This document shows positions 10,802 to 61,200 of a stretch of DNA of 64,000 bases, piece by piece. This DNA is from Odiellus spinosus (taxonomy: Eukaryota; Arthropoda; Arachnida; Opiliones; Phalangiidae). The stretch spans positions 248,001-312,000 of the forward strand of contig CAWUCO010000272.1 of assembly GCA_963920705.1 (NCBI GenBank), read 5' to 3'. The notes beneath the pieces are model-generated. The model searched no databases, was not told the DNA's origin, and worked only from the letters and a program-made list of their open reading frames with translations. Position 1 is the stretch's first letter, and every line of letters begins with the position of its first letter. A program made the translations under genes and the position numbers.

Positions 10802-13155
10802 GGAAAACGTGATTGGAAAAACGTGATTGGAAAAACGTGATTGGAAAAACGTGAATGGAAAAACGTGATTTGGAAAAACGTGATTTGGAAAAACGTGATT
10901 GGAAAAACGTGATTGGAAAAACGTGATTCGAAAAACGTGATTGGAAAAACGTGATTGGAAAAACGTGATTGGAAAAACGTGATTGGAAAAACGTGATTGG
11001 AAAAACGTGATTTGGAAAAACGTGATTGGAAAAACGTGATTGGAAAAACGTGATTGGAAAAACGTGATTGGAAAAACGTGATTTGGAAAAACGTGATTTG
11101 AAAAAACGTGATTGGAAAAACGTGATTGGAAAAACGTGATTGGAAAAACGTGATTTGGAAAAACGTGATTGGAAAAACGTGATTGGAAAAACGTGATTTG
11201 GAAAAACGTGATTTGGAAAAACGTGATTTGGAAAAACGTGATTGGAAAAACGTGATTTGGAAAAGCGTGATTGGAAAAACGTGAATGGAAAAACGTGATT
11301 TGGAAAAACGTGATTTGGAAAAACGTGATTGGAAAAACGTGATTGGAAAAACGTGATTTGGAAAAACGTGATTTGGAAAAACGTGATTTGGAAAAACGTG
11401 ATTGGAAAAACGTGATTGGAAAAACGTGATTTGGAAAAACGTGATTTGGAAAAACGTGATTGGAAAAACGTGATTGGACAAACGTGATTTGGAAAAACGT
11501 GATTTGGAAAAACGTGATTTGGAAAAACGTGACGTGATTGGAAAAACGTGATTGGAAAAACGTGATTGGAAAAACGTGATTGGAAAAACGTGATTGGAAA
11601 AACGTGATTGGAAAAACGTGATTTGGAAAAACGTGATTGGAAAAACGTGATTGGAAAAACGTGATTTGGAAAAACGTGATTTGGAAAAACGTGATTTGGA
11701 AAAACGTGATTGGAAAAACGTGATTTGGAAAAACGTGATTGGAAAAACGTGAATGGAAAAACGTGATTTGGAAAAACGTGATTTGGAAAAACGTGATTGG
11801 AAAAACGTGATTGGAAAAACGTGATTTGGAAAAACGTGATTGGAAAAACGTGATTGGAAAAACGTGATTGGAAAAACGTGATTGGAAAAACGTGATTGGA
11901 AAAACGTGATTGGAAAAACGTGATTGGAAAAACGTGATTGGAAAAACGTGATTGGAAAAACGTGATTGGAAAAACGTGATTGGAAAAACGTGATTGGAAA
12001 ACGTGATTGGAAAAACGTGATTGGAAAAACGTGATTGGAAAAACGTGAATGGAAAAACGTGATTTGGAAAAACGTTATTTGGAAAAACGTGATTGGAAAA
12101 ACGTGATTGGAAAAACGTGATTCGAAAAACGTGATTGGAAAAGCGTGATTGGAAAAACGTGATTGGAAAAACGTGATTGGAAAAACGTGATTGGAAAAAC
12201 GTGATTGGAAAAACGTGATTGGAAAAACGTGATTTGGAAAAACGTGATTGGAAAAACGTGATTGGAAAAACGTGATTGGAAAAACGTGATTGGAAAAACG
12301 TGATTTGGAAAAACGTGATTTGAAAAAACGTGATTGGAAAAACGTGATTGGAAAAACGTGATTGGAAAAACGTGATTTGGAAAAACGTGATTGGAAAAAC
12401 GTGATTGGAAAAACGTGATTTGGAAAAACGTGATTTGGAAAAACGTGATTTGGAAAAACGTGATTGGAAAAACGTGATTTGGAAAAGCGTGATTGGAAAA
12501 ACGTGAATGGAAAAACGTGATTTGGAAAAACGTGATTTGGAAAAACGTGATTGGAAAAACGTGATTGGAAAAACGTGATTTGGAAAAACGTGATTTGGAA
12601 AAACGTGATTTGGAAAAACGTGATTGGAAAAACGTGATTGGAAAAACGTGATTTGGAAAAACGTGATTTGGAAAAACGTGATTGGAAAAACGTGATTGGA
12701 CAAACGTGATTTGGAAAAACGTGATTTGGAAAAACGTGATTTGGAAAAACGTGACGTGATTGGAAAAACGTGATTGGAAAAACGTGATTGGAAAAACGTG
12801 ATTGGAAAAACGTGATTGGAAAAACGTGATTGGAAAAACGTGATTTGGAAAAACGTGATTGGAAAAACGTGATTGGAAAAACGTGATTTGGAAAAACGTG
12901 ATTTGGAAAAACGTGATTTGGAAAAAACGTGATTGGAAAAACGTGATTTGGAAAAACGTGATTGGAAAAACGTGAATGGAAAAACGTGATTTGGAAAAAC
13001 GTGATTTGGAAAAACGTGATTGGAAAAACGTGATTGGAAAAACGTGATTTGGAAAAACGTGATTTGGAAAAACGTGATTGGAAAAACGTGATTGGAAAAA
13101 CGTGATTTGGAAAAACGTGATTTGGAAAAACGTGATTTGGAAAAACGTGACGTGA
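10802..13155 (+). repeat. ~1.2-kb tandem duplication with 311-bp cores
   Basis: A 4-A unit at 10802 and 11996 and TTCGAAAAAC at 10927 and 12121 are each 1194 bp apart. The TGACGTGA junctions at 11530 and 12752 and the GGACAAACG markers just before them are about 1222 bp apart, a difference of two units (28 bp). The segment ends with a well-preserved 22-unit core at 12844-13155 (312 bp because of one extra A). Confidence 0.82.
12844..13155 (+). repeat. Reference copy of the 22-unit composite core
   Basis: Unit lengths in order: 15, 14, 14, 15, 15, 15, 14, 15, 14, 14 (starts ATGG), 15, 15, 14, 14, 15, 15, 14, 14, 15, 15, 15, 5. The sum is 311 bp; this copy has one extra A. The same series ends at many other TGACGTGA junctions. 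For example, 17754 to 18149 is 395 bp (core plus six 14-mers) and 44319 to 44728 is 409 bp (core plus seven). Confidence 0.9.
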
Positions 13156-16735: not shown

Positions 16736-18148
16736 TGACGTGATTGGAAAAACGTGATTGGAAAAACGTGATTGGAAAAACGTGATTGGAAAAACGTGAT
16801 TGGAAAAACGTGATTGGAAAAACGTGATTGGAAAATCGTGATTGGAAAAACGTGATTGGAAAAACGTGATTGGAGAAACGTGATTGGAAAAACGTGATTG
16901 GAAAAACGTGATTGGAAAAACGTGATTGGAAAAACGTGATTGGAAAAACGTGATTGGTAAAACGTGATTGGAAAAACGTGATTGGAAAAACGTGATTGGA
17001 AAAACGTGATTTGAAAAACGTGATTGGAAAAACGTGATTGGAAAAACGTGATTGGAAAAACGTGATTGGAAAAACGTGATTGTAAAAACGTGATTGGAAA
17101 AACGTGATTGGAAAAACGTGATTGGAAAAACGTGATTGGAAAAACGTGATTGGAAAAACGTGATTGGAAAAACGTGATTGGAAAAACGTGATTGGAAAAA
17201 CGTGATTGGAAAAACGTGATTGGAAAAACGTGATTGGAAAAACGTGATTGGAAAAACGTGATTGGAAAAACGTGATTGGAAAAACGTGATTGGAAAAACG
17301 TGATTGGAAAAACGTGATTGGAAAAACCTGATTGGAAAAACCTGATTGGAAAAACGTGATTGGAAAAACGTGATTGGAAAAACGTGATTGGAAAAACGTG
17401 ATTGGAAAAACGTGATTGGAAAAACGTGATTGGAAAAACGTGATTGGAAAAGCGTGATTGGAAAAACGTGATTGGAAAAACGTGATTGGAAAAACGTGAT
17501 TGGAAAAACGTGATTGGAAAAACGTGATTGGAAAAACGTGATTGGAAAAACGTGATTGGAAAAACGTGATTGGAAAAACGTGATTGGAAAAACGTGATTG
17601 GAAAAACGTGATTCGAAAAACGTGATTGGAAAAACGTGATTGGAAAAACGTGATTTGGAAAAACGTGATTTGGAAAAACGTGATTGGAAAAACGTGATTG
17701 GACAAACGTGATTTGGAAAAACGTGATTTGGAAAAACGTGATTTGGAAAAACGTGACGTGATTGGAAAAACGTGATTGGAAAAACGTGATTGGAAAAACG
17801 TGATTGGAAAAACGTGATTGGAAAAACGTGATTGGAAAAACGTGATTTGGAAAAACGTGATTGGAAAAACGTGATTGGAAAAACGTGATTTGGAAAAACG
17901 TGATTTGGAAAAACGTGATTTGGAAAAACGTGATTGGAAAAACGTGATTTGGAAAAACGTGATTGGAAAAACGTGAATGGAAAAACGTGATTTGGAAAAA
18001 CGTGATTTGGAAAAACGTGATTGGAAAAACGTGATTGGAAAAACGTGATTTGGAAAAACGTGATTTGGAAAAACGTGATTGGAAAAACGTGATTGGAAAA
18101 ACGTGATTTGGAAAAACGTGATTTGGAAAAACGTGATTTGGAAAAACG
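16736..18148 (+). repeat. Canonical runs and one junction-bounded core
   Basis: This is mostly 14-mers with scattered single changes (AAAATCG near 16826, GGAGAAACG near 16873, GGTAAAACG near 16955, GTAAAAACG near 17081, two CCTGA units near 17330-17357, TTCG near 17613). A GGACAAACG marker precedes the 17754 junction, and a full 395-bp core-plus-six-unit repeat runs to 18149. Confidence 0.85.
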
Positions 18149-19618
18149 TGACGTGATTGGAAAAACGTGATTGGAAAAACGTGATTGGAAAAACGTGATT
18201 GGAAAAACGTGATTGGAAAAACGTGATTGGAAAAACGTGATTGGAAAAACGTGAGTGGAAAAACGTGAGTGGAAAAACGTGAGTGGAAAAACGTGAGTGG
18301 AAAAACGTGAGTGGAAAAACGTGATCGGAAAAACGTGATCGGAAAAACGTGATCGGAAAAACGTGATCGGAAAAACGTGATCGGAAAAACGTGATCGGAA
18401 AAACGTGATCGGAAAAACGTGATTGGAAAAACGTGATTGGAAAAACGTGATTGGAAAAACGTGATTGGAAAAACGTGATTGGAAAAACGTGATTGGAAAA
18501 ACGTGATTGGAAAAACGTGATTGGAAAAACGTGATTGGAAAAACGTGATTGGAAAAACGTGAGTGGAAAAACGTGAGTGGAAAAACGTGAGTGGAAAAAC
18601 GTGAGTGGAAAAACGTGAGTGGAAAAACGTGATTGGAAAAACGTGATTGGAAAAACGTGATTGGAAAAACGTGATTGGAAAAACGTGATTGGAAAACGTG
18701 ATTGGAAAAACGTGATTGGAAAAACGTGATTGGAAAAACGTGATTGGAAAAACGTGATTGGAAAAACGTGATTGGAAAAACGTGATTGGAAAAACGTGAT
18801 TGTTAAAACGTGATTGGAAAAACGTGATTGGAAAAACGTGATTGGAAAAACGTGAGTGGAAAAACGTGAGTGGAAAAACGTGAGTGGAAAAACGTGAGTG
18901 GAAAAACGTGAGTGGAAAAACGTGATTTGGAAAAACGTGATTGGAAAAACGTGATTGGAAAAACGTGATTGGAAAAACGTGATTGGAAAAACGTGATTTG
19001 GAAAAACGTGATTTGGAAAAACGTGATTGGAAAAACGTGATTGGAAAAACGTGATTGGAAAAACGTGATTTGGAAAAACGTGATTGGAAAAACGTGATTG
19101 GAAAAACGTGATTGGAAAAACGTGATTTGGAAAAACGTGATTTGGAAAAACGTGATTTGGAAAAACGTGTTTGGAAAAACGTGATTTGGAAAAACGTGAT
19201 TTGGAAAAACGTGATTTGGAAAAACGTGATTGGAAAAACGTGATTTGGAAAAACGTGATTGGAAAAACGTGAATGGAAAAACGTGATTTGGAAAAACGTG
19301 ATTTGGAAAAACGTGATTGGAAAAACGTGATTGGAAAAACGTGATTGGAAAAACGTGATTTGGAAAAACGTGATTTAGAAAAACGTGATTTGGAAAAACG
19401 TGATTGGAAAAACGTGATTTGGAAAAACGTGATTGGAAAAACGTGAATGGAAAAACGTGATTTGGAAAAACGTGATTTGGAAAAACGTGATTGGAAAAAC
19501 GTGATTGGAAAAACGTGATTTGGAAAAACGTGATTTGGAAAAACGTGATTGGAAAAACGTGATTGGAAAAACGTGATTTGGAAAAACGTGATTTGGAAAA
19601 ACGTGATTTGGAAAAACG
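18149..19618 (+). repeat. GTGG/TCGG higher-order cassette, copy 1
   Basis: Zones in order: canonical units, GTGG x5 (18255-18324), TCGG x7 (18325-18422), canonical, GTGG x5 (18563-18632), canonical with one 13-bp unit, GTGG x5 (18856-18925), then 14/15-bp core patterns. The next 1.3 kb repeats the order and the same run lengths of 5, 7, 5 and 5. Confidence 0.9.
18255..18925 (+). repeat. GTGG x5, TCGG x7, GTGG x5, GTGG x5 runs
   Basis: The runs are at 18255-18324 (GTGG), 18325-18422 (TCGG), 18563-18632 (GTGG) and 18856-18925 (GTGG), separated by canonical units. A TTGTTAAAAC unit lies near 18799. Confidence 0.94.
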
Positions 19619-34260: not shown

Positions 34261-35967
34261 TTGGAAACACGTGATTGGAAACACAGGATTGGAAACACAG
34301 GATTGGAAACACAGGATTGGAAACACAGGATTGGAAACACAGGATTGGAAACACAGGATTGGAAACACAGGATTGGAAACACAGGATTGGAAACACAGGA
34401 TTGGAAACACAGGATTGGAAACACAGGATTGGAAACACAGGATTGGAAAAACAGGATTGGAAAAACAGGATTGGAAAAACAGGATTGGAAAAACAGGATT
34501 GGAAAAACAGGATTGGAAAAACAGGATTGGAAAAACAGGATTGGAAAAACAGGATTGGAAAAACAGGATTGGAAAAACAGGATTGGAAAAACAGGATTGG
34601 AAAAACAGGATTGGAAAAACAGGATTGGAAAAACAGGATTGGAAAAACAGGATTGGAAAAACAGGATTGGAAAAACAGGATTGGAAAAACAGGTTTGGAA
34701 AAACAGGATTGGAAAAACGGGATTGGAAAAACGGGATTGGAAAAACGGGATTGGAAAAACGTGATTGGAAAAACGTGATTGGAAAAACGTGATTGGAAAA
34801 ACGTGATTGGAAAAACGTGATTGGAAAAACGTGATTGGAAAAACGTGATTGGAAAAACGTGATTGGAAAAACGGGATTGGAAAAACGGGATTGGAAAAAC
34901 GGGATTGGAAAAACGGGATTGGAAAAACGGGATTGGAAAAACGGGATTGGAAAAACGGGATTGGAAAAACGGGATTGGAAAAACGGGATTGGAAAAACGG
35001 GATTGGAAAAACGGGATTGGAAAAACGGGATTGGAAAAACGGGATTGGAAAAACGGGATTGGAAAAACGGGATTGGAAAAACGGGATTGGAAAAACGGGA
35101 TTGGAAAAACGGGATTGGAAAACGGGATTGGAAAAACGGGATTGGATAAACGGGATTGGAAAAACGGGATTGGAAAAACGGGATTGGAAAAACGGGATTG
35201 GAAAAACGGGATTGGAAAAACGGGATTGGAAAAACGGGATTGGAAAAACGGGATTGGAAAAACGGGATTGGAAAAACGGGATTGGAAAAACGGGATTGGA
35301 AAAACGGGATTGGAAAAACGGGATTGGAAAAACGGGATTGGAAAAACGGGATTGGAAAAACGGGATTGGAAAAACGGGATTGGAAAAACGGGATTGGAAA
35401 AACGGGATTGGAAAAACGGGATTGGAAAAACGGGATTGGAAAAACGGGATTGGAAAAACGGGATTGGAAAAACGGGATTGGAAAAACGGGATTGGAAAAA
35501 CGGGATTGGAAAAACGGGATTGGAAAAACGGGATTGGAAAAACGGGATTGGAAAAACGGGATTGGAAAAACGGGATAGGAAAAACGGGATTGGAAAAACG
35601 GGATTGGAAAAACGGGATTGGAAAAACGGGATTGGAAAAACGGGATTGGAAAAACGGGATTGGAAAAACGGGATTGGAAAAACGGGATTGGAAAAACGGG
35701 ATTGGAAAAACGGGATTGGAAAAACGGGATTGGAAAAACGGGATTGGAAAAACGGGATTGGAAAAACGGGATTGGAAAAACGTGATTGGAAAAACGTGAT
35801 TGGAAAAACGTGATTGGAAAAACGTGATTGGAAAAACGTGATTGGAAAAACGTGATTGGAAAAACGTGATTGGAAAGACGTGATTGGAAAGACGTGATTG
35901 GAAAGACGTGATTGGAAAGACGTGATTGGAAAGACGTGATTGGAAAGACGTGATTGGAAAGACGTGA
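34261..35967 (+). repeat. Variant domain 1 (CACAGGA, CAGGA, CGGGA, AAGACGTGA)
   Basis: Ordered homogeneous runs: one AACACGTGA unit (34261-34274), 12 AACACAGGA (34275-34442), 19 CAGGA (34443-34708, one ending AGGT), 3 CGGGA (34709-34750), 8 canonical (34751-34862), 65 CGGGA (34863-35771, one of 13 bp), 7 canonical (35772-35869) and 7 AAAGACGTGA (35870-35967). There are no 15-mers or 5-bp remnants. Because CAGGA and CGGGA remove the TGA, all three plus-strand frames open here; the apparent reading frames are not genes. Confidence 0.96.
34863..35771 (+). repeat. CGGGA run, 65 units
   Basis: Sixty-five units of TTGGAAAAACGGGA (T12 to G), with one 13-bp unit near 35120, one GGATAAACG near 35153 and one GGATAGG near 35574. 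This is one of three long CGGGA runs in the window. Confidence 0.96.
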
Positions 35968-40300: not shown

Positions 40301-41662
40301 TTGGAAAAACGTGATTGGAAAAACGTGATTGGAAAAACGTGATTGGAAAAACGTGATTGGAAAAACGTGATTGGAAAAACGTGATTGGAAAAACGTGATT
40401 GGAAAAACGTGATTGGAAAAACGTGATTTGGAAAAACGTGATTGGAAAAACGTGATTGGAAAAACGTGATTGGAAAAACGTGATTGGAAAAACGTGATTT
40501 GGAAAAACGTGATTTGGAAAAACGTGATTGGAAAAACGTGATTGGAAAAACGTGATTGGAAAAACGTGATTTGGAAAAACGTGATTGGAAAAACGTGATT
40601 GGAAAAACGTGATTTGGAAAAACGTGATTTGGAAAAACGTGATTGGAAAAACGTGATTGGAAAAACGTGATTTGGAAAAACGTGATTTGGAAAAACGTGA
40701 TTTGGAAAAACGTGACGTGATTGGAAAAACGTGATTGGAAAAACGTGATTGGAAAAACGTGATTGGAAAAACGTGATTGGAAAAACGTGATTGGAAAAAC
40801 GTGATTGGAAAAACGTGATTGGAAAAAGGTGATTGGAAAAACGTGATTGGAAAAACGTGATTGGAAAAACGTGATTGAAAAAACGTGATTGGAAAAACGT
40901 GATTGGAAAAACGTGATTGGAAAAACGTGATTGGAAAAACGTGATTGGAAAAACGTGATTGGAAAAACGTGATTGGAAAAACGTGATTGGAAAAACGTGA
41001 TTGGAAAAACGTGATTGGAAAAACGTGATTGGAAAAACGTGATTGGAAAAACGTGATTGGAAAAACGTGATTGGAAAAACGTGATTGGAAAAACGTGATT
41101 GAAAAAACGTGATTGAAAAAACGTGATTGGAAAAACGTGATTGGAAAAACGTGATTGGAAAAACGTGATTGGAAAAACGTGATTGGAAAAACGTGATTGG
41201 AAAAACGTGATTGGAAAAACGTGATTAGAAAAACGTGATTGGAAAAACGTGATTGGAAAAACGTGATTGGAAAAACGTGATTGGAAAAACGTGATTGGAA
41301 AAACGTGATTGGAAAAACGTGATTGGAAAAACGTGATTGGAAAAACGTGATTGGAAAAACGTGATTGGAAAAACGTGATTGGAAAAACGTGATTGGAAAA
41401 ACGTGATTGGAAAAACGTGATTGGAAAAACGTGATTGGAAAAACGTGATTTGGAAAAACGTGATTTGGAAAAACGTGATTGAAAAACGTGATTGGAAAAA
41501 CGTGATTGGAAAAACGTGATTTGGAAAAACGTGATTGGAAAAACGTGATTGGAAAAACGTGATTTGGAAAAACGTGATTTGGAAAAACGTGATTGGAAAA
41601 ACGTGATTGGAAAAACGTGATTTGGAAAAACGTGATTTGGAAAAACGTGATTTGGAAAAACG
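37304..41662 (+). repeat. Cores with long canonical spacers, ~1-kb period at the end
   Basis: Junctions lie at 38374, 39649 and 40713. Single-unit markers include GTGTTTTGG near 37529, GGACAAACG three times in 38551-38600, a lone CCTGA near 38643, GGTGA near 39777, 39791 and 40826, and GATTAGAA at 40204 and 41224 (1020 bp apart). From 41.1 kb the sequence matches the flank of the right-hand segmental duplicate near 57.8 kb. Confidence 0.83.
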
Positions 41663-41670
41663 TGACGTGA

Positions 41671-42181
41671 TTGGAATAACGTGATTGGAAAAACGTGATT
41701 GGAAAAACGTGATTGGAAAAACGTGATTGGAAAAACGTGATTGGAAAAACGTGATTGGAAAAACGTGATTGGAAAAACGTGATTTGGAAAAACGTGATTG
41801 GAAAAACGTGATTGGAAAAACGTGATTTGGAAAAACGTGATTTGGAAAAACGTGATTTGGAAAAACGTGATTGGAAAAACGTGATTAGGAAAAACGTGAT
41901 TGGAAAAACGTGAATGGAAAAACGTGATTTGGAAAAACGTGATTTGGAAAAACGTGATTGGAAAAACCAGATTGGACAAACGTGATTTGGAAAAACGTGA
42001 TTTGGAAAAACGTGATTTGGAAAAACGTGATTGGAAAAACGTGATTGGAAAAACGTGATTTGGAAAAACGTGATTTGGAAAAACGTGATTGGAAAAACGT
42101 GATTGGAAAAACGTGATTTGGAAAAACGTGATTTGGAAAAACGTGATTTGGAAAAACGTGATTTGGAAAAACGTGACGTGA
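41671..42181 (+). repeat. 27-unit expanded core with GGAATAACG, TTAGG and CCAGA
   Basis: This is a representative of eight copies (after the junctions at 41663, 43823, 45202, 46906, 58231, 60348, 61742 and 62981). Canonical units beginning with GGAATAACG precede a 384-bp series of 14, 15 and 5-bp units that includes one TTAGGAAAAACGTGA unit and one ending in CCAGA. The 496-bp spacing seen in most copies is 384 bp plus eight 14-mers; this copy is 15 bp longer, one extra 15-mer. Confidence 0.86.
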
Positions 42182-45100
42182 TTGGAAAAACGTGATTGTA
42201 AAAACGTGATTGGAAAAACGTGATTGGAAAAACGTGATTGGAAAAACGTGATTGGAAAAACGTGATTGGAAAAACGTGATTTGGAAAAACGTGATTGGAA
42301 AAACGTGATTGGAAAAACGTGATTTGGAAAAACGTGATTTGGAAAAACGTGATTTGGAAAAACGTGATTGGAAAAACGTGATTTGGAAAAACGTGATTGG
42401 AAAAACGTGAATGGAAAAACGTGATTTGGAAAAACGTGATTTGGAAAAACATGATTGGAAAAACGTGATTGGAAAAACGTGATTTGGAAAAACGTGATTT
42501 GGAAAAACGTGATTGGAAAAACGTGATTGGAAAAACGTGATTTGGAAAAACGTGATTTGGAAAAACGTGATTTGGAAAAACGTGACGTGATTGGAAAAAC
42601 GTGATTGGAAAAACGTGATTGGAAAAACGTGATTGGAAAAACGTGATTGGAAAAACGTGATTGGAAAAACGTGATTGGAAAAACGTGATTGGAAAAACGT
42701 GATTGGAAAAACGTGATTGGAAAAACGTGATTTGGAAAAACGTGATTTGGAAAAACGTGATTGGAAAAACGTGATTGGAAAAACGTGATTTGGAAAAACG
42801 TGATTTGGAAAAACGTGATTTGGAAAAACGTGACGTGATTGGAAAAACGTGATTGGAAAAACGTGATTGGAAAAACGTGATTGGAAAAACGTGATTGGAA
42901 AAACGTGATTGGAAAAACGTGATTGGAAAAACGTGATTGGAAAAACGTGATTGGAAAAACGTGATTGGAAAAACGTGATTGGAAAAACGTGATTGGAAAA
43001 ACGTGATTGGAAAAACGTGATTGGAAAAACGTGATTGGAAAAACGTGATTGGAAAAACGTGATTGGAAAAACGTGATTGGAAAAACGTGATTGGAAAAAC
43101 GTGGTTGGAAAAACGTGATTGGAAAAACGTGATTGGAAAAACGTGATTGGAAAAACGTGATTGGAAAAACGTGATTGGAAAAACGTGATTGGAAAAACGT
43201 GATTGGAAAAACGTGATTGGAAAAACGTGATTGGAAAAACGTGATTGGAAAAACGTGATTGAAAAAACGTGATTGAAAAAACGTGATTGGAAAAACGTGA
43301 TTGGAAAAACGTGATTGGAAAAACGTGATTGGAAAAACGTGATTGGAAAAACGTGATTGGAAAAACGTGATTGGAAAAACGTGATTAGAAAAACGTGATT
43401 GGAAAAACGTGATTGGAAAAACGTGATTGGAAAAACGTGATTGGAAAAACGTGATTGGAAAAACGTGATTGGAAAAACGTGATTGGAAAAACGTGATTGG
43501 AAAAACGTGATTGGAAAAACGTGATTGGAAAAACGTGATTGGAAAAACGTGATTGGAAAAACGTGATTGGAAAAACGTGATTGGAAAAACGTGATTGGAA
43601 AAACGTGATTTGGAAAAACGTGATTTGGAAAAACGTGATTGAAAAACGTGATTGGAAAAACGTGATTGGAAAAACGTGATTTGGAAAAACGTGATTGGAA
43701 AAACGTGATTGGAAAAACGTGATTTGGAAAAACGTGATTTGGAAAAACGTGATTGGAAAAACGTGATTGGAAAAACGTGATTTGGAAAAACGTGATTTGG
43801 AAAAACGTGATTTGGAAAAACGTGACGTGATTGGAATAACGTGATTGGAAAAACGTGATTGGAAAAACGTGATTGGAAAAACGTGATTGGAAAAACGTGA
43901 TTGGAAAAACGTGATTGGAAAAACGTGATTGGAAAAACGTGATTTGGAAAAACGTGATTGGAAAAACGTGATTGGAAAAACGTGATTTGGAAAAACGTGA
44001 TTTGGAAAAACGTGATTTGGAAAAACGTGATTGGAAAAACGTGATTAGGAAAAACGTGATTGGAAAAACGTGAATGGAAAAACGTGATTTGGAAAAACGT
44101 GATTTGGAAAAACGTGATTGGAAAAACCAGATTGGAAAAACGTGATTTGGAAAAACGTGATTTGGAAAAACGTGATTTGGAAAAACGTGATTGGAAAAAC
44201 GTGATTGGAAAAACGTGATTTGGAAAAACGTGATTTGGAAAAACGTGATTGGAAAAACGTGATTGGAAAAACGTGATTTGGAAAAACGTGATTTGGAAAA
44301 ACGTGATTTGGAAAAACGTGACGTGATTGGAAAAACGTGATTGTAAAAACGTGATTGGAAAAACGTGATTGGAAAAACGTGATTGGAAAAACGTGATTGG
44401 AAAAACGTGATTGGAAAAACGTGATTTGGAAAAACGTGATTGGAAAAACGTGATTGGAAAAACGTGATTTGGAAAAACGTGATTTGGAAAAACGTGATTT
44501 GGAAAAACGTGATTGGAAAAACGTGATTTGGAAAAACGTGATTGGAAAAACGTGAATGGAAAAACGTGATTTGGAAAAACGTGATTTGGAAAAACATGAT
44601 TGGAAAAACGTGATTGGAAAAACGTGATTTGGAAAAACGTGATTTGGAAAAACGTGATTGGAAAAACGTGATTGGAAAAACGTGATTTGGAAAAACGTGA
44701 TTTGGAAAAACGTGATTTGGAAAAACGTGACGTGATTGGAAAAACGTGATTGGAAAAACGTGATTGGAAAAACGTGATTGGAAAAACGTGATTGGAAAAA
44801 CGTGATTGGAAAAACGTGATTGGAAAAACGTGATTGGAAAAACGTGATTGGAAAAACGTGATTGGAAAAACGTGATTGGAAAAACGTGATTGGAAAAACG
44901 TGATTGGAAAAACGTGATTGGAAAAACGTGATTGGAAAAACGTGATTGGAAAAACGTGATTGGAAAAACGTGATTGGAAAAACGTGATTTGGAAAAACGT
45001 GATTTGGAAAAACGTGATTGAAAAACGTGATTGGAAAAACGTGATTGGAAAAACGTGATTTGGAAAAACGTGATTGGAAAAACGTGATTGGAAAAACGTG

Positions 45101-45869: not shown

Positions 45870-46640
45870 AACGTGATTGAAAAAACGTGATTGAAAAAAC
45901 GTGATTGGAAAAACGTGATTGGAAAAACGTGATTGGAAAAACGTGATTGGAAAAACGTGATTGGAAAAACGTGATTGGAAAAACGTGATTGGAAAAACGT
46001 GATTAGAAAAACGTGATTGGAAAAACGTGATTGGAAAAACGTGATTGGAAAAACGTGATTGGAAAAACGTGATTGGAAAAACGTGATTGGAAAAACGTGA
46101 TTGGAAAAACGTGATTGGAAAAACGTGATTGGAAAAACGTGATTGGAAAAACGTGATTGGAAAAACGTGATTGGAAAAACGTGATTGTAAAAACGTGATT
46201 GGAAAAACGTGATTGGAAAAACGTGATTGGAAAAACGTGATTGGAAAAACGTGATTGGAAAAACGTGATTTGGAAAAACGTGATTGGAAAAACGTGATTG
46301 GAAAAACGTGATTTGGAAAAACGTGATTTGGAAAAACGTGATTGAAAAAACGTGATTGAAAAAACGTGATTGGAAAAACGTGATTGGAAAAACGTGATTG
46401 GAAAAACGTGATTGGAAAAACGTGATTGGAAAAACGTGATTGGAAAAACGTGATTGGAAAAACGTGATTAGAAAAACGTGATTGGAAAAACGTGATTGGA
46501 AAAACGTGATTGGAAAAACGTGATTGGAAAAACGTGATTGGAAAAACGTGATTGGAAAAACGTGATTGGAAAAACGTGATTGGAAAAACGTGATTGGAAA
46601 AACGTGATTGGAAAAACGTGATTGGAAAAACGTGATTGGA
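45870..46640 (+). repeat. ~465-bp tandem duplication inside segment C, left copy
   Basis: A doublet of units with TTGAAAAAACG near 45880 recurs near 46344, and GATTAGAA near 46004 recurs near 46468, both 464 bp apart. The right-hand segment has only one of each (near 62420 and 62543). Boundaries are approximate. Confidence 0.82.
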
Positions 46641-48072
46641 AAAACGTGATTGGAAAAACGTGATTGGAAAAACGTGATTGGAAAAACGTGATTTGGAAAA
46701 ACGTGATTTGGAAAAACGTGATTGAAAAACGTGATTGGAAAAACGTGATTGGAAAAACGTGATTTGGAAAAACGTGATTGGAAAAACGTGATTGGAAAAA
46801 CGTGATTTGGAAAAACGTGATTTGGAAAAACGTGATTGGAAAAACGTGATTGGAAAAACGTGATTTGGAAAAACGTGATTTGGAAAAACGTGATTTGGAA
46901 AAACGTGACGTGATTGGAATAACGTGATTGGAAAAACGTGATTGGAAAAACGTGATTGGAAAAACGTGATTGGAAAAACGTGATTGGAAAAACGTGATTG
47001 GAAAAACGTGATTGGAAAAACGTGATTTGGAAAAACGTGATTGGAAAAACGTGATTGGAAAAACGTGATTTGGAAAAACGTGATTTGGAAAAACGTGATT
47101 TGGAAAAACGTGATTGGAAAAACGTGATTAGGAAAAACGTGATTGGAAAAACGTGAATGGAAAAACGTGATTTGGAAAAACGTGATTTGGAAAAACGTGA
47201 TTGGAAAAACCAGATTGGAAAAACGTGATTTGGAAAAACGTGATTTGGAAAAACGTGATTTGGAAAAACGTGATTGGAAAAACGTGATTGGAAAAACGTG
47301 ATTTGGAAAAACGTGATTTGGAAAAACGTGATTGGAAAAACGTGATTGGAAAAACGTGATTTGGAAAAACGTGATTTGGAAAAACGTGATTTGGAAAAAC
47401 GTGACGTGATTGGAAAAACGTGATTGTAAAAACGTGATTGGAAAAACGTGATTGGAAAAACGTGATTGGAAAAACGTGATTGGAAAAACGTGATTGGAAA
47501 AACGTGATTTGGAAAAACGTGATTGGAAAAACGTGATTGGAAAAACGTGATTTGGAAAAACGTGATTTGGAAAAACGTGATTTGGAAAAACGTGATTGGA
47601 AAAACGTGATTTGGAAAAACGTGATTGGAAAAACGTGAATGGAAAAACGTGATTTGGAAAAACGTGATTTGGAAAAACATGATTGGAAAAACGTGATTGG
47701 AAAAACGTGATTTGGAAAAACGTGATTTGGAAAAACGTGATTGGAAAAACGTGATTGGAAAAACGTGATTTGGAAAAACGTGATTTGGAAAAACGTGATT
47801 TGGAAAAACGTGACGTGATTGGAAAAACGTGATTGGAAAAACGTGATTGGAAAAACGTGATTGGAAAAACGTGATTGGAAAAACGTGATTGGAAAAACGT
47901 GATTGGAAAAACGTGATTGGAAAAACGTGATTGGAAAAACGTGATTGGAAAAACGTGATTGGAAAAACGTGATTTGGAAAAACGTGATTTGGAAAAACGT
48001 GATTGGAAAAACGTGATTGGAAAAACGTGATTTGGAAAAACGTGATTTGGAAAAACGTGATTTGGAAAAACG

Positions 48073-49174: not shown

Positions 49175-50111
49175 TGACGTGATTGGAAAAACGTGATTGG
49201 AAAAACGTGATTGGAAAAACGTGATTGGAAAAACGTGATTGGAAAAACGTGATTGGAAAAACGTGATTGGAAAAACGTGATTGGAAAAACGTGATTGGAA
49301 AAACGTGATTGGAAAAACGTGATTGGAAAAACGTGATTGGAAAAACGTGATTGGAAAAACGTGATTGGAAAAACGTGATTGGAAAAACGTGATTGGAAAA
49401 ACGTGATTGGAAAAACGTGATTGGAAAAACGTGATTGGAAAAACGTGGTTGGAAAAACGTGATTGGAAAAACGTGATTGGAAAAACGTGATTGGAAAAAC
49501 GTGATTGGAAAAACGTGATTGGAAAAACGTGATTTGGAAAAACGTGATTGGAAAAACGTGATTGGAAAAACGTGATTTGGAAAAACGTGATTTGGAAAAA
49601 CGTGATTTGGAAAAACGTGATTGGAAAAACGTGATTTGGAAAAACGTGATTGGAAAAACGTGAATGGAAAAACGTGATTTGGAAAAACGTGATTTGGAAA
49701 AACATGATTGGAAAAACGTGATTGGAAAAACGTGATTTGGAAAAACGTGATTTGGAAAAACGTGATTGGAAAAACGTGATTGGAAAAACGTGATTTGGAA
49801 AAACGTGATTTGGAAAAACGTGATTTGGAAAAACGTGACGTGATTGGAAAAACGTGATTGGAAAAACGTGATTGGAAAAACGTGATTGGAAAAACGTGAT
49901 TGGAAAAACGTGATTGGAAAAACGTGATTGGAAAAACGTGATTGGAAAAACGTGATTGGAAAAACGTGATTGGAAAAACGTGATTGGAAAAACGTGATTG
50001 GAAAAACGTGATTTGGAAAAACGTGATTTGGAAAAACGTGATTGGAAAAACGTGATTGGAAAAACGTGATTTGGAAAAACGTGATTTGGAAAAACGTGAT
50101 TTGGAAAAACG
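49175..50111 (+). repeat. Canonical run and two cores without CCTGA
   Basis: A GTGGTTGG marker near 49446 lies 271 bp after the junction, as at 42831/43103. It is followed by a full core ending at 49836 with the single CATGA unit marker near 49701, then a 276-bp sub-repeat. This resembles the 42.2-43.1 kb part of segment C more than the CCTGA cassettes on either side. Confidence 0.82.
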
Positions 50112-54852: not shown

Positions 54853-55076
54853 TTGGAAAAACGTGATTGGAAAAACGTGATTGGAAAAACGTGATTGGAA
54901 AAACGTGATTGGAAAAACGTGATTGGAAAAACGTGATTGGAAAAACGTGATTGGAAAAACGTGATTGGAAAAACGTGATTGGAAAAACGTGATTGGAAAA
55001 ACGTGATTGGAAAAACGTGATTGGAAAAACGTGATTGGAAAAACGTGATTGGAAAAACGTGATTGGAAAAACGTGA

Positions 55077-55706
55077 TTGGAAAAACGGGATTGGAAAAAC
55101 GGGATTGGAAAAACGGGATTGGAAAAACGGGATTGGAAAAACGGGATTGGAAAAACGGGATTGGAAAAACGGGATTGGAAAAACGGGATTGGAAAAACGG
55201 GATTGGAAAAACGGGATTGGAAAAACGGGATTGGAAAAACCGGATTGGAAAAACCGGATTGGAAAAACCGGATTGGAAAAACGGGATTGGAAAAACGGGA
55301 TTGGAAAAACGGGATTGGAAAAACGGGATTGGAAAAACGGGATTGGAAAAACGGGATTGGAAAAACGGGATTGGAAAAACGGGATTGGAAAAACGGGATT
55401 GGAAAAACGGGATTGGAAAAACGGGATTGGAAAAACGGGATTGGAAAAACGGGATTGGAAAAACGGGATTGGAAAAACGGGATTGGAAAAACGGGATTGG
55501 AAAAACGGGATTGGAAAAACGGGATTGGAAAAACGGGATTGGAAAAACGGGATTGGAAAAACGGGATTGGAAAAACGGGATTGGAAAAACGGGATTGGAA
55601 AAACGGGATTGGAAAAACGGGATTGGAAAAACGGGATTGGAAAAACGGGATTGGAAAAACGGGATTGGAAAAACGGGATTGAAAAAACGGGATTGGAAAA
55701 ACGGGA
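55077..55706 (+). repeat. CGGGA run, 45 units with three CCGGA
   Basis: Forty-five units in register. Units at 55231-55272 are CCGGA (G11 to C added to T12 to G). Confidence 0.95.
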
Positions 55707-56238
55707 TTGGAAAAACATGATTGGAAAAACATGATTGGAAAGACATGATTGGAAAGACATGATTGGAAAGACATGATTGGAAAGACATGATTGGAAAGAC
55801 ATGATTGGAAAGACATGATTGGAAAGACATGATTGGAAAGACATGATTGGAAAGACATGTTTGGAAAGACATGTTTGGAAAGACATGATTGGAAAGACAT
55901 GATTGGAAAGACATGATTGGAAAAACATGATTGGAAAAACATGATTGGAAAAACATGATTGGAAAAACATGATTGGAAAAACATGATTGGAAAAACATGA
56001 TTGGAAAAACATGATTGGAAAAACATGATTGGAAAAACATGATTGGAAAAACATGATTGGAAAAACATGATTGGAAAAACATGATTGGAAAAACATGATT
56101 GGAAAAACATGATTGGAAAAACATGATTGGAAAAACATGATTGGAAAAACATGATTGGAAAAACATGATTGGAAAAACATGATTGGAAAAACATGATTGG
56201 AAAAACATGATTGGAAAAACATGATTGGAAAAACATGA
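55707..56238 (+). repeat. CATGA and AAAGACATGA runs, left flank
   Basis: Two CATGA units, 13 AAAGACATGA units (two followed by TTTGG through A14 to T, near 55860 and 55874) and 23 CATGA units. CATGA is what CpG deamination on the minus strand would give from CGTGA. Confidence 0.95.
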
Positions 56239-56910
56239 TTGGAAAAACAGGATTGGAAAAACAGGATTGGAAAAACAGGATTGGAAAAACAGGATTGGAA
56301 ACACAGGATTGGAAACACAGGATTGGAAACACAGGATTGGAAACACAGGATTGGAAACACAGGATTGGAAACACAGGATTGGAAACACAGGATTGGAAAC
56401 ACAGGATTGGAAACACAGGATTGGAAACACAGGATTGGAAACACAGGATTGGAAACACAGGATTGGAAACACAGGATTGGAAACACAGGATTGGAAAAAC
56501 AGGATTGGAAAAACAGGATTGGAAAAACAGGATTGGAAAAACAGGATTGGAAAAACAGGATTGGAAAAACAGGATTGGAAAAACAGGATTGGAAAAACAG
56601 GATTGGAAAAACAGGATTGGAAAAACAGGATTGGAAAAACAGGATTGGAAAAACAGGATTGGAAAAACAGGATTGGAAAAACAGGATTGGAAAAACAGGA
56701 TTGGAAAAACAGGATTGGAAAAACAGGATTGGAAAAACAGGATTGGAAAAACAGGATTGGAAAAACAGGATTGGAAAAACAGGATTGGAAAAACAGGATT
56801 GGAAAAACAGGATTGGAAAAACAGGATTGGAAAAACAGGATTGGAAAAACAGGATTGGAAAAACAGGATTGGAAAAACAGGATTGGAAAAACAGGATTGG
56901 AAAGACAGGA
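56239..56910 (+). repeat. CAGGA and AACACAGGA runs, centre
   Basis: Four CAGGA, 14 AACACAGGA (A8 to C), 29 CAGGA and one AAAGACAGGA unit. No CpG remains in this 672-bp stretch. The same AACACAGGA/CAGGA pairing opens variant domain 1 at 34275-34708. Confidence 0.95.
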
Positions 56911-57442
56911 TTGGAAAGACATGATTGGAAAGACATGATTGGAAAGACATGATTGGAAAGACATGATTGGAAAGACATGATTGGAAAGACATGATTGGAA
57001 AGACATGATTGGAAAGACATGATTGGAAAGACATGATTGGAAAGACATGATTGGAAAGACATGATTGGAAAGACATGATTGGAAAGACATGATTGGAAAA
57101 ACATGATTGGAAAAACATGATTGGAAAAACATGATTGGAAAAACATGATTGGAAAAACATGATTGGAAAAACATGATTGGAAAAACATGATTGGAAAAAC
57201 ATGATTGGAAAAACATGATTGGAAAAACATGATTGGAAAAACATGATTGGAAAAACATGATTGGAAAAACATGATTGGAAAAACATGATTGGAAAAACAT
57301 GATTGGAAAAACATGATTGGAAAAACATGATTGGAAAAACATGATTGGAAAAACATGATTGGAAAAACATGATTGGAAAAACATGATTGGAAAAACATGA
57401 TTGGAAAAACATGATTGGAAAAACATGATTGGAAAAACATGA
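56911..57442 (+). repeat. AAAGACATGA and CATGA runs, right flank
   Basis: Thirteen AAAGACATGA units followed by 25 CATGA units. The AAAGACATGA run length (13) equals that of the left flank at 55735-55916 and is again followed by CATGA units (23 on the left, 25 here), which suggests the CAGGA centre lies between two copies of one segment. Confidence 0.95.
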
Positions 57443-58230
57443 TTGGAAAAACGTGATTGGAAAAACGTGATTGGAAAAACGTGATTGGAAAAACGTGATT
57501 GGAAAAACGTGATTGGAAAAACGTGATTGGAAAAACGTGATTGGAAAAACGTGATTGGAAAAACGTGATTGGAAAAACGTGATTGGAAAAACGTGATTGG
57601 AAAAACGTGATTGGAAAAACGTGATTGGAAAAACGTGATTGGAAAAACGTGATTGGAAAAACGTGATTGGAAAAACGTGATTGGAAAAACGTGATTGGAA
57701 AAACGTGATTGGAAAAACGTGATTGGAAAAACGTGATTGGAAAAACGTGATTGGAAAAACGTGATTGGAAAAACGTGATTGGAAAAACGTGATTAGAAAA
57801 ACGTGATTGGAAAAACGTGATTGGAAAAACGTGATTGGAAAAACGTGATTGGAAAAACGTGATTGGAAAAACGTGATTGGAAAAACGTGATTGGAAAAAC
57901 GTGATTGGAAAAACGTGATTGGAAAAACGTGATTGGAAAAACGTGATTGGAAAAACGTGATTGGAAAAACGTGATTGGAAAAACGTGATTGGAAAAACGT
58001 GATTGGAAAAACGTGATTTGGAAAAACGTGATTTGGAAAAACGTGATTGAAAAACGTGATTGGAAAAACGTGATTGGAAAAACGTGATTTGGAAAAACGT
58101 GATTGGAAAAACGTGATTGGAAAAACGTGATTTGGAAAAACGTGATTTGGAAAAACGTGATTGGAAAAACGTGATTGGAAAAACGTGATTTGGAAAAACG
58201 TGATTTGGAAAAACGTGATTTGGAAAAACG
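57443..58230 (+). repeat. Canonical run and core leading into segment C
   Basis: Forty-one canonical units (one GATTAGAA at 57793), then 15/14-bp patterns to the 58231 junction. GATTAGAA lies 438 bp before the junction, matching 41224/41663 (439 bp). The duplication with the left copy therefore starts near 57.8 kb. Confidence 0.88.
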
Positions 58231-61200
58231 TGACGTGATTGGAATAACGTGATTGGAAAAACGTGATTGGAAAAACGTGATTGGAAAAACGTGATTGGAA
58301 AAACGTGATTGGAAAAACGTGATTGGAAAAACGTGATTGGAAAAACGTGATTTGGAAAAACGTGATTGGAAAAACGTGATTGGAAAAACGTGATTTGGAA
58401 AAACGTGATTTGGAAAAACGTGATTTGGAAAAACGTGATTGGAAAAACGTGATTAGGAAAAACGTGATTGGAAAAACGTGAATGGAAAAACGTGATTTGG
58501 AAAAACGTGATTTGGAAAAACGTGATTGGAAAAACCAGATTGGACAAACGTGATTTGGAAAAACGTGATTTGGAAAAACGTGATTTGGAAAAACGTGATT
58601 GGAAAAACGTGATTGGAAAAACGTGATTTGGAAAAACGTGATTTGGAAAAACGTGATTGGAAAAACGTGATTGGAAAAACGTGATTTGGAAAAACGTGAT
58701 TTGGAAAAACGTGATTTGGAAAAACGTGACGTGATTGGAAAAACGTGATTGTAAAAACGTGATTGGAAAAACGTGATTGGAAAAACGTGATTGGAAAAAC
58801 GTGATTGGAAAAACGTGATTGGAAAAACGTGATTTGGAAAAACGTGATTGGAAAAACGTGATTGGAAAAACGTGATTTGGAAAAACGTGATTTGGAAAAA
58901 CGTGATTTGGAAAAACGTGATTGGAAAAACGTGATTTGGAAAAACGTGATTGGAAAAACGTGAATGGAAAAACGTGATTTGGAAAAACGTGATTTGGAAA
59001 AACATGATTGGAAAAACGTGATTGGAAAAACGTGATTTGGAAAAACGTGATTTGGAAAAACGTGATTGGAAAAACGTGATTGGAAAAACGTGATTTGGAA
59101 AAACGTGATTTGGAAAAACGTGATTTGGAAAAACGTGACGTGATTGGAAAAACGTGATTGGAAAAACGTGATTGGAAAAACGTGATTGGAAAAACGTGAT
59201 TGGAAAAACGTGATTGGAAAAACGTGATTGGAAAAACGTGATTGGAAAAACGTGATTGGAAAAACGTGATTGGAAAAACGTGATTTGGAAAAACGTGATT
59301 TGGAAAAACGTGATTGGAAAAACGTGATTGGAAAAACGTGATTTGGAAAAACGTGATTTGGAAAAACGTGATTTGGAAAAACGTGACGTGATTGGAAAAA
59401 CGTGATTGGAAAAACGTGATTGGAAAAACGTGATTGGAAAAACGTGATTGGAAAAACGTGATTGGAAAAACGTGATTGGAAAAACGTGATTGGAAAAACG
59501 TGATTGGAAAAACGTGATTGGAAAAACGTGATTGGAAAAACGTGATTGGAAAAACGTGATTGGAAAAACGTGATTGGAAAAACGTGATTGGAAAAACGTG
59601 ATTGGAAAAACGTGATTGGAAAAACGTGGTTGGAAAAACGTGATTGGAAAAACGTGATTGGAAAAACGTGATTGGAAAAACGTGATTGGAAAAACGTGAT
59701 TGGAAAAACGTGATTGGAAAAACGTGATTGGAAAAACGTGATTGGAAAAACGTGATTGGAAAAACGTGATTGGAAAAACGTGATTGAAAAAACGTGATTG
59801 AAAAAACGTGATTGGAAAAACGTGATTGGAAAAACGTGATTGGAAAAACGTGATTGGAAAAACGTGATTGGAAAAACGTGATTGGAAAAACGTGATTGGA
59901 AAAACGTGATTAGAAAAACGTGATTGGAAAAACGTGATTGGAAAAACGTGATTGGAAAAACGTGATTGGAAAAACGTGATTGGAAAAACGTGATTGGAAA
60001 AACGTGATTGGAAAAACGTGATTGGAAAAACGTGATTGGAAAAACGTGATTGGAAAAACGTGATTGGAAAAACGTGATTGGAAAAACGTGATTGGAAAAA
60101 CGTGATTGGAAAAACGTGATTGGAAAAACGTGATTTGGAAAAACGTGATTTGGAAAAACGTGATTGAAAAACGTGATTGGAAAAACGTGATTGGAAAAAC
60201 GTGATTTGGAAAAACGTGATTGGAAAAACGTGATTGGAAAAACGTGATTTGGAAAAACGTGATTTGGAAAAACGTGATTGGAAAAACGTGATTGGAAAAA
60301 CGTGATTTGGAAAAACGTGATTTGGAAAAACGTGATTTGGAAAAACGTGACGTGATTGGAATAACGTGATTGGAAAAACGTGATTGGAAAAACGTGATTG
60401 GAAAAACGTGATTGGAAAAACGTGATTGGAAAAACGTGATTGGAAAAACGTGATTGGAAAAACGTGATTTGGAAAAACGTGATTGGAAAAACGTGATTGG
60501 AAAAACGTGATTTGGAAAAACGTGATTTGGAAAAACGTGATTTGGAAAAACGTGATTGGAAAAACGTGATTAGGAAAAACGTGATTGGAAAAACGTGAAT
60601 GGAAAAACGTGATTTGGAAAAACGTGATTTGGAAAAACGTGATTGGAAAAACCAGATTGGAAAAACGTGATTTGGAAAAACGTGATTTGGAAAAACGTGA
60701 TTTGGAAAAACGTGATTGGAAAAACGTGATTGGAAAAACGTGATTTGGAAAAACGTGATTTGGAAAAACGTGATTGGAAAAACGTGATTGGAAAAACGTG
60801 ATTTGGAAAAACGTGATTTGGAAAAACGTGATTTGGAAAAACGTGACGTGATTGGAAAAACGTGATTGTAAAAACGTGATTGGAAAAACGTGATTGGAAA
60901 AACGTGATTGGAAAAACGTGATTGGAAAAACGTGATTGGAAAATCGTGATTTGGAAAAACGTGATTGGAAAAACGTGATTGGAAAAACGTGATTTGGAAA
61001 AACGTGATTTGGAAAAACGTGATTTGGAAAAACGTGATTGGAAAAACGTGATTTGGAAAAACGTGATTGGAAAAACGTGAATGGAAAAACGTGATTTGGA
61101 AAAACGTGATTTGGAAAAACATGATTGGAAAAACGTGATTGAAAAAACGTGATTTGGAAAAACGTGATTTGGAAAAACGTGATTGGAAAAACGTGATTGG

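Follow-up and report, generated by a model that had tools for sequence, protein, structure and literature searches.

The ordered series of 14-, 15- and 20-bp units that recurs in a satellite array of Odiellus spinosus is, in our judgement probably and with good confidence, a higher-order repeat (HOR) by descent, spread through block copying in an array which had grown from the minisatellite of a mobile element. The array, the series, the substitution shared by its copies, the block duplications, the element end at the array's edge and the other copies of that element were observed directly in the assembly, and they are described below in relation to the readings that compete with this one. The window, that is, the whole stretch of 64,000 nucleotides that was analysed, corresponds to C264:248001-312000 (contig CAWUCO010000272.1) in the 443-Mb assembly of 286 contigs, GCA_963920705.1. 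Positions refer to the window unless a contig is named.

Structure of the tandem array

The plus strand of the window is, from position 1 to position 64000 and with no interruption, a tandem array of the 14-bp unit TTGGAAAAACGTGA, for which TRF gave 4,483 copies and 96% matches. Wrap-around alignment to the cyclic monomer TTGGAAAAACGTGA parsed the whole window into 4,482 units of TTGGAAAAACGTGA, of which 3,512 measure 14 bp, 872 measure 15 bp and 65 measure 20 bp, the rarer lengths being 13 bp (28 units), 12 bp (three units), 16 bp and 19 bp (one unit each). The 15+5 pair of the first-pass annotation is the 20-bp unit, and 64 of the 65 such units were counted by means of the mark CGTGACGTGA together with its variants. 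The mark CGTGACGTGA itself ends 63 units, and the gaps between its successive occurrences range from 34 to 5,123 bp, with a median of 738.5 bp. The array as a whole occupies C264 from about 101,748 to 322,283, or approximately 220.5 kb; its edges were read in two further pieces (L045 and L016), and about 119.5 kb of this length was read directly.

Two blocks of the plus strand are ordered by substitutions. The first, at 34271-35781, is made of nearly all 14-mers and contains runs of TTGGAAACACAGGA and TTGGAAAAACGGGA. The second, at 55073-57452, is devoid of GTGA, has a length string of 14-mers throughout and is ordered by substitution variants, among which CGGGA, CCGGA, ACAGGA and ACATGA are visible in its printed ends.

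The units with an extra T (T2-to-T3) number 818, while the A-tract variants in otherwise plain units amount to ten A4 (losses) and two A6 (gains). Because the extra-T units stand against so few changes in the longer A tract, the 15-mers were copied rather than remade repeatedly, and recurrent T-slippage was rejected as their origin.

On the minus strand of the window, frames run without a stop for as many as 6,568 codons. None of the frames of the plain unit contains a stop codon on this strand, so that the long open frames are a property of the repeat, and protein coding there was rejected. Read on the minus strand, the plain unit is CCAATCACG, a word that is broken in the 15-mer and in the ATGG, GTGG and TCGG variants and that we take to resemble a CCAAT-box. 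Exact-match scans of a bacterial/archaeal genome collection and of viral contigs gave 0 matches, and a literature search with 12-14-letter pieces of the 14-bp unit yielded nothing related.

Recurrence of the unit-length series

When 14-mers are coded as a, 15-mers as b and the 15+5 unit as c, the series reads baabbbabaabbaabbaabbc and comprises 21 symbols. The first-pass annotation had stated that an ordered series of 14-, 15- and 5-bp units recurs through the window, and this was borne out: the length string of the window contains 7 exact copies, 17 copies at one mismatch or fewer and 21 at two or fewer, compared with 0 copies at each mismatch level in 200 shuffles of the unit order. Because local structure in an array makes shuffling a weak null, Markov models of orders 1, 2, 3, 5 and 8 were added; these were fitted to the window's own length string and run 50 times per order. 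The order-8 model gave means of 2.2, 5.2 and 9.0 copies and maxima of 5, 10 and 16, to be compared with the observed 7, 17 and 21. The enrichment in the length string on which the earlier proposal depended was therefore found, above the shuffles and above the order-8 model as well, and first-order chance was rejected as the only null.

Cores that are exact by length lie on the plus strand at 17846-18156 (311 bp, with ATGG at unit 10), at 42280-42590, 44425-44735, 47508-47818, 49533-49843 and 58833-59143 (a subfamily with G12A at unit 12), and at 60950-61260, where G4A at unit 14 is a further substitution within the G12A subfamily. The copy named at the outset, at 12844-13155 on the same strand, follows the series otherwise, but it is not exact; it measures 312 bp and has a 16-mer at unit 6, for which reason it was counted as a one-mismatch copy. 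The spacers, which had been described as exact multiples of 14, are such where they consist of 14-mers throughout, but others contain 13-, 15- or 20-mers. The accompanying decomposition of the intervals of 248, 395 and 409 bp is arithmetically correct; 395 bp was found once, 409 bp five times and 248 bp twice, and the commonest interval is 496 bp, with six occurrences. The 21-unit series is one of several relatives, a 26-unit version and the motif bbmaabaabbaabbc recurring nearby.

The copies selected by length also agree in a substitution. T1A (ATGG) occupies unit 10 in all 21 of them, including two in which this unit is an AT unit with further changes (ATTG..). Units that begin with AT are rare in the window (72 of 4,482), and when the selection was reversed, starting from these units, 40 of the 72 had the register of the core, with no more than 4 length mismatches, compared with 1.0% of all units, whereas the 13 other commonest 14-bp substitution types gave 0 each. 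Between 42 and 64 kb, all 8 copies have the substitution G12A at unit 12, and none of the 13 others does; substitutions thus define subfamilies of the core.

Regarded as an HOR, the series shows a multi-unit segment that recurs above chance (7, 17 and 21 copies versus 0 in the shuffles) and units in the same place that are alike in their substitutions (ATGG in 21/21 copies, 40/72 AT units in register). It does not show a regular head-to-tail arrangement, the cores being separated by spacers of very unequal length. The series is a real HOR, which is interspersed, irregular and specific to this locus.

Block duplications and the mixing of unit lengths

Exact duplications of the unit string with mixed content and a length of at least 40 units number 36 in the window, at distances of 734 to 19,144 bp. 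The longest comprises 113 units, or 1,631 bp, and its two copies on the plus strand, at 43259-44889 and at 46342-47972, are identical in lengths and in substitutions. Of the 4,482 units, 2,572 belong to exact duplications of mixed content that span 21 units or more, compared with 0 in each of three shuffles. A larger repeat was recognized at 41449-42838 (plus strand), consisting of the motif bbmaabaabbaabbc, a spacer, the longer core version, a spacer, the 21-unit core, a spacer and a tail. This motif occurs eight times between 41,449 and 62,767, and a spacer followed by the longer core version comes after it on every occasion; the 21-unit core is next in six of the eight, one of them having an extra unit before the end mark.

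Core copies that lie farther apart in the window are no less similar than close ones (Mantel p 0.23 with substitutions, 0.85 with lengths), and therefore a simple exchange between neighbours is insufficient. Repeated block copying with changing boundaries explains the recurrence of the series. What had been put forward as an unusual way for a satellite to be organised looks, in this light, like the ordinary footprint of such copying.

The mixing of unit lengths might itself help to produce stable higher-order structure in satellites with short units, in addition to marking it, although we regard such a phase lock as improbable. Stretches made entirely of 14-mers would slip easily by single units, so that substitutions would become runs, while in mixtures of 14- and 15-mers a slip by one unit would leave a phase mismatch and be suppressed, the mosaic being copied only as long blocks in register. 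In agreement with it, the next unit is the same in 76 to 93% of cases for six common substitution variants and in only 44% for the 15-mer, and runs of 15-mers are never longer than 4, with 20-mers counted. The run of 14-mers that follows the end mark of the core varies from 3 to 67 units, and the distance from the AT unit to the end mark is mostly 12 or 17 units (20 and 10, respectively, of the 56 AT units that follow ba; a further 12 have no mark within 30 units). However, ATGG, which is also a 14-mer substitution, is found in runs in 0 of 63 cases, and this fits the mixed context but also a single origin. The variation of the runs may mirror block boundaries, the core copies were selected by similarity, and spacers of 7 and 8 units are likewise almost constant among recent copies. 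The data allow a phase lock without showing it.

The right edge: a dispersed mobile element

A segment of 162 bp, at and beyond the right edge of the array, represents the 5' end of a mobile element with dispersed copies. All 40 scored copies of the segment (itself included, and one of them on C264), which were the best 40 of 1,041 first-look candidates, have at least 98% identity, the 39 others falling at 98-99%. The edge of the long array is therefore the element's own end. In 12 of 12 other copies, taken as the next 12 in the ranked list and not as a random sample, this end abuts an array of the 14-bp family of about 45 to 744 bp, so that short arrays of this family occupy the corresponding position in other element copies. 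In 11 of the 12 the array is followed by CAACYTGGCTA and a second array, the period of which is 50 bp in the four copies measured. The five dispersed arrays met first (L017, L019, L020, L024 and L025) belong to the same 14-bp family, and the 162-bp end lies beside or near the array in four of them, not being visible in L019. The long satellite most likely grew out of the minisatellite of this mobile element.

Some further copies and arrays show features of their own. In L055 (C274) a 17-bp variant, TTTTCAAATCATGTAAC, replaces the 14-bp unit of the array from about 50 bp onwards, and at L025:7245-8830 a copy of the element has the 14-bp-like sequence AAAACAGGATTT on both sides, as if it had been inserted in another array of the family. 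Other arrays of the family (L020 on C1, L018 on C158, L021 on C125, L022 on C58 and L023 on C4) have their own main units, that of L020 being the 15-bp TTTGGAAAAACGTCA; the 10-kb samples of C4, C58, C125 and C158 consist of 14-bp array from end to end.

The element carries a 12-nt subterminal inverted repeat, TAGCTAGACCCA / TGGGTCTAGCTA, at both ends in six of eight copies and at one end only in the other two. Where the 3' end was within reach, it consists of the palindrome AGCTAGACCC..GGGTCTAGCT and, after it, a stretch of A. The palindrome was found in 5 of 12 sampled copies, within the stretch fetched, as well as in L017 (in imperfect form), L019 and L025, and it folds at -18.1 kcal/mol with RNA parameters. 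No flank match longer than 3 bp was detected in any of five sampled copies with both ends, and the 5' flanks of 11 copies are A/T-rich and have no fixed TT. The layout of the element resembles that of non-autonomous Helentrons with central arrays, as far as it is given in passages of PMC4067079 and PMC7492417. Among these, the Cg_HINE elements of the Pacific oyster have, in the account excerpted from PMC7492417, two end modules, subterminal inverted repeats of 11-12 bp, a 3' palindrome and a central tandem array. The element described here differs in possessing two distinct internal arrays, of 14 bp and about 50 bp, in the start of its 5' inverted-repeat copy about 26 nt from the end, and in that no clear TT target was seen.

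The left edge and the mode of amplification

On the left, the array meets a different dispersed repeat instead of the 50-bp repeats that belong to the element, and no remainder of the element was found at this edge. The left-flank repeat was located at 40 places after 46 rows had been merged, the best 40 of 995 first-look candidates having been scored. The array is absent from the corresponding point in 7 of 7 other copies of the left flank, two of which (L061 and L064) are identical. Since these seven copies are without it, the long array is one-sided, with an element end on the right and a foreign repeat on the left, and the idea that one autonomous Helitron contains both the array and the left flank was rejected. 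Both on C264 and on C183 the left-flank segment is 3.4 kb from a match to Helitron_like_N. Pairs of a Helitron_like_N match and a flank with the expected side and strand, versus those without, numbered 4 versus 0 within 6 kb, 6 versus 2 within 11 kb and 7 versus 6 within 25 kb; this count used 145 of 150 Helitron rows, the five left out being second pieces of a match or overlooked. With a piece of a different element on each side, the array has an origin that is only partly traced.

The one-sidedness raises the question of whether the array expanded through aberrant rolling-circle replication, starting from an element copy without a 3' terminator, and not through unequal exchange. The array does retain the 5' end alone, at its right edge; a model of this kind, together with one-sided 'intermediate' arrays, is presented in part of the review PMC12628747, and the genome contains at least 150 matches to Helitron_like_N, one of them at the 3.4 kb from the left-flank segment mentioned above. 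Rolling-circle replication, however, predicts larger repeated segments with 5' ends, whereas the 119.5 kb that was read contained a single 5' end, and the observed blocks are variable internal segments. This route is thus considered unlikely.

According to the reading preferred here, block copying in an array of mobile-element origin, the array would have started as the minisatellite inside a Helentron-like element, dispersed and non-autonomous, and would have grown at one locus from tens or hundreds of bases to approximately 220 kb. The large array would have kept the 5' end of the element at its right edge and would have lost, or never had, the 50-bp repeats and the 3' end on its left. An ancestral stretch of the 14-bp array may have been a mosaic of 14-mers, 15-mers with a T-insertion, one CGTGA duplication and one ATGG unit, which would then have been copied over and over in the form of blocks, within one locus, presumably by unequal exchange or by replication-based amplification. 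The mechanism of exchange and the order of these events are what we infer from the sequences described.

Lengths and substitutions as carriers of the higher order

The first-pass annotation assigned the higher-order identity mainly to indel phase and not to substitutions. Compared with the monomer, the 311-bp core contains 12 T-insertions, one 5-bp duplication and one consensus substitution, and length marks consequently outnumber substitutions by 13 to 1 inside it. To this extent the assignment stands. The substitutions carry higher order too, and the view that they do not take part in the pattern is contradicted by ATGG at unit 10 in all 21 copies and by a substitution string with about as much order as the length string. 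In the window, the entropy of the length-only string is 0.227 bits per unit versus 0.740 in shuffled strings (five shuffles), a drop of 69%, and that of the substitution-only string is 0.428 versus 1.344 bits per unit (also five shuffles), a drop of 68%; over the window the two strings show about the same degree of order. The length and substitution distances among core copies agree (Mantel rho 0.45, p 0.004), the pairwise length differences being low partly because the copies were selected by length.

That unit length itself should be the organising principle, with substitutions irrelevant, is therefore very doubtful. Such a view accounts for the 13 of 14 differences between core and monomer that are T-insertions or the 5-bp duplication, and for the long repeats present in the length string. 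It does not accommodate a substitution fixed in register in 21 of 21 copies, nor the AT substitution, which leads to cores (40 of 72) when lengths are not used at all; in the parts of the window made of nearly all 14-mers the organisation is provided by runs of substitutions, and the order of the substitution string is about that of the length string.

Distribution in the assembly

Beyond the window, 27 copies of the series (at most two mismatches) were found in five 10-kb samples (L011-L015), with copies in all five, and none in three short samples near the left end of the array (L037, L038 and L044). The first 145 bp of the core occur 62 times in the 443-Mb assembly, always on a single strand, 61 times on C264 (between 122,630 and 316,757) and once on C183. 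Two shorter marks gave 233 and 305 occurrences, all on the same strand, and among the 100 places listed for each of them all were on C183 and C264. At three spots on C183, chosen by mark prediction, the core is present once without a mismatch and twice with one, ATGG standing at unit 10 in each. Furthermore, the left flank known from the C264 array is also present on C183, where it scores 787 of 796 bits across 441 bp (L058), and because of this common flank the two arrays were taken to be alleles or a duplicated locus. An artefact, in which the assembler itself made block duplications in a simple repeat, might be suspected from C264, which looks unplaced and has exactly 355,000 bases, and from other pieces of round size (671,000; 130,000; 2,575,000) that suggest cut scaffolds, but it is most improbable in view of the private substitutions carried by many core copies and of the presence of the series on both C264 and C183.

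Some observations concern other parts of the assembly. In L010 (C264:60001-70000), Pfam matches to an integrase core, an adenovirus-type protease and a BIR domain were obtained in three of five frames scanned, and we take these genes to represent a Polinton/adintovirus-like element. The mitochondrial contig contains COX1 under the invertebrate mitochondrial code and a gene run ND2-COX1-COX2-ATP6, read from the frames; a tRNA scan of the mitochondrial piece detected none. C17, a contig of nuclear size, includes several fragments of mitochondrial COX1, some of them longer than 800 bp.

Comparison with known systems and significance

The unit of the insulin minisatellite is 14-15 bp long. Maps of variant repeats with block duplications have long been described for minisatellites, as outlined in part of PMC2674676, and the human insulin and MSY1 minisatellites treated there resemble the present array in their short units, in interspersed variants whose order is informative and in block duplications. 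The array described here is far longer (about 220 kb) and is of mobile-element origin. Human satellites 2 and 3 likewise have a very short ancestral unit (CATTC) with subfamilies, and a section of PMC4022460 reports five subfamilies in which its authors suspected a longer predominant repeat unit. Their sequence is unrelated to that of the present satellite, in which many of the marks of the longer repeat are length variants of whole units. The conversion of internal tandem repeats of a non-autonomous element into satellite arrays has a parallel in Tetris / TIR-220 of Drosophila virilis, according to PMC4079207; Tetris is a foldback element with 220-bp repeats, in contrast to the 14-bp unit and Helentron-like ends found here. 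Parallels are known for each step, and the higher-order pattern, which is ordinary in itself, is explicable without any function.

The value of the system lies in the two unit lengths, which make block copying traceable unit by unit, so that slippage versus block exchange becomes testable, and in C183, where a second long array with the same left flank is available for comparison. A single genome shows here both the likely start of the birth of a satellite, in the short arrays of a dispersed element, and its outcome, an array of approximately 220 kb with an HOR of its own.
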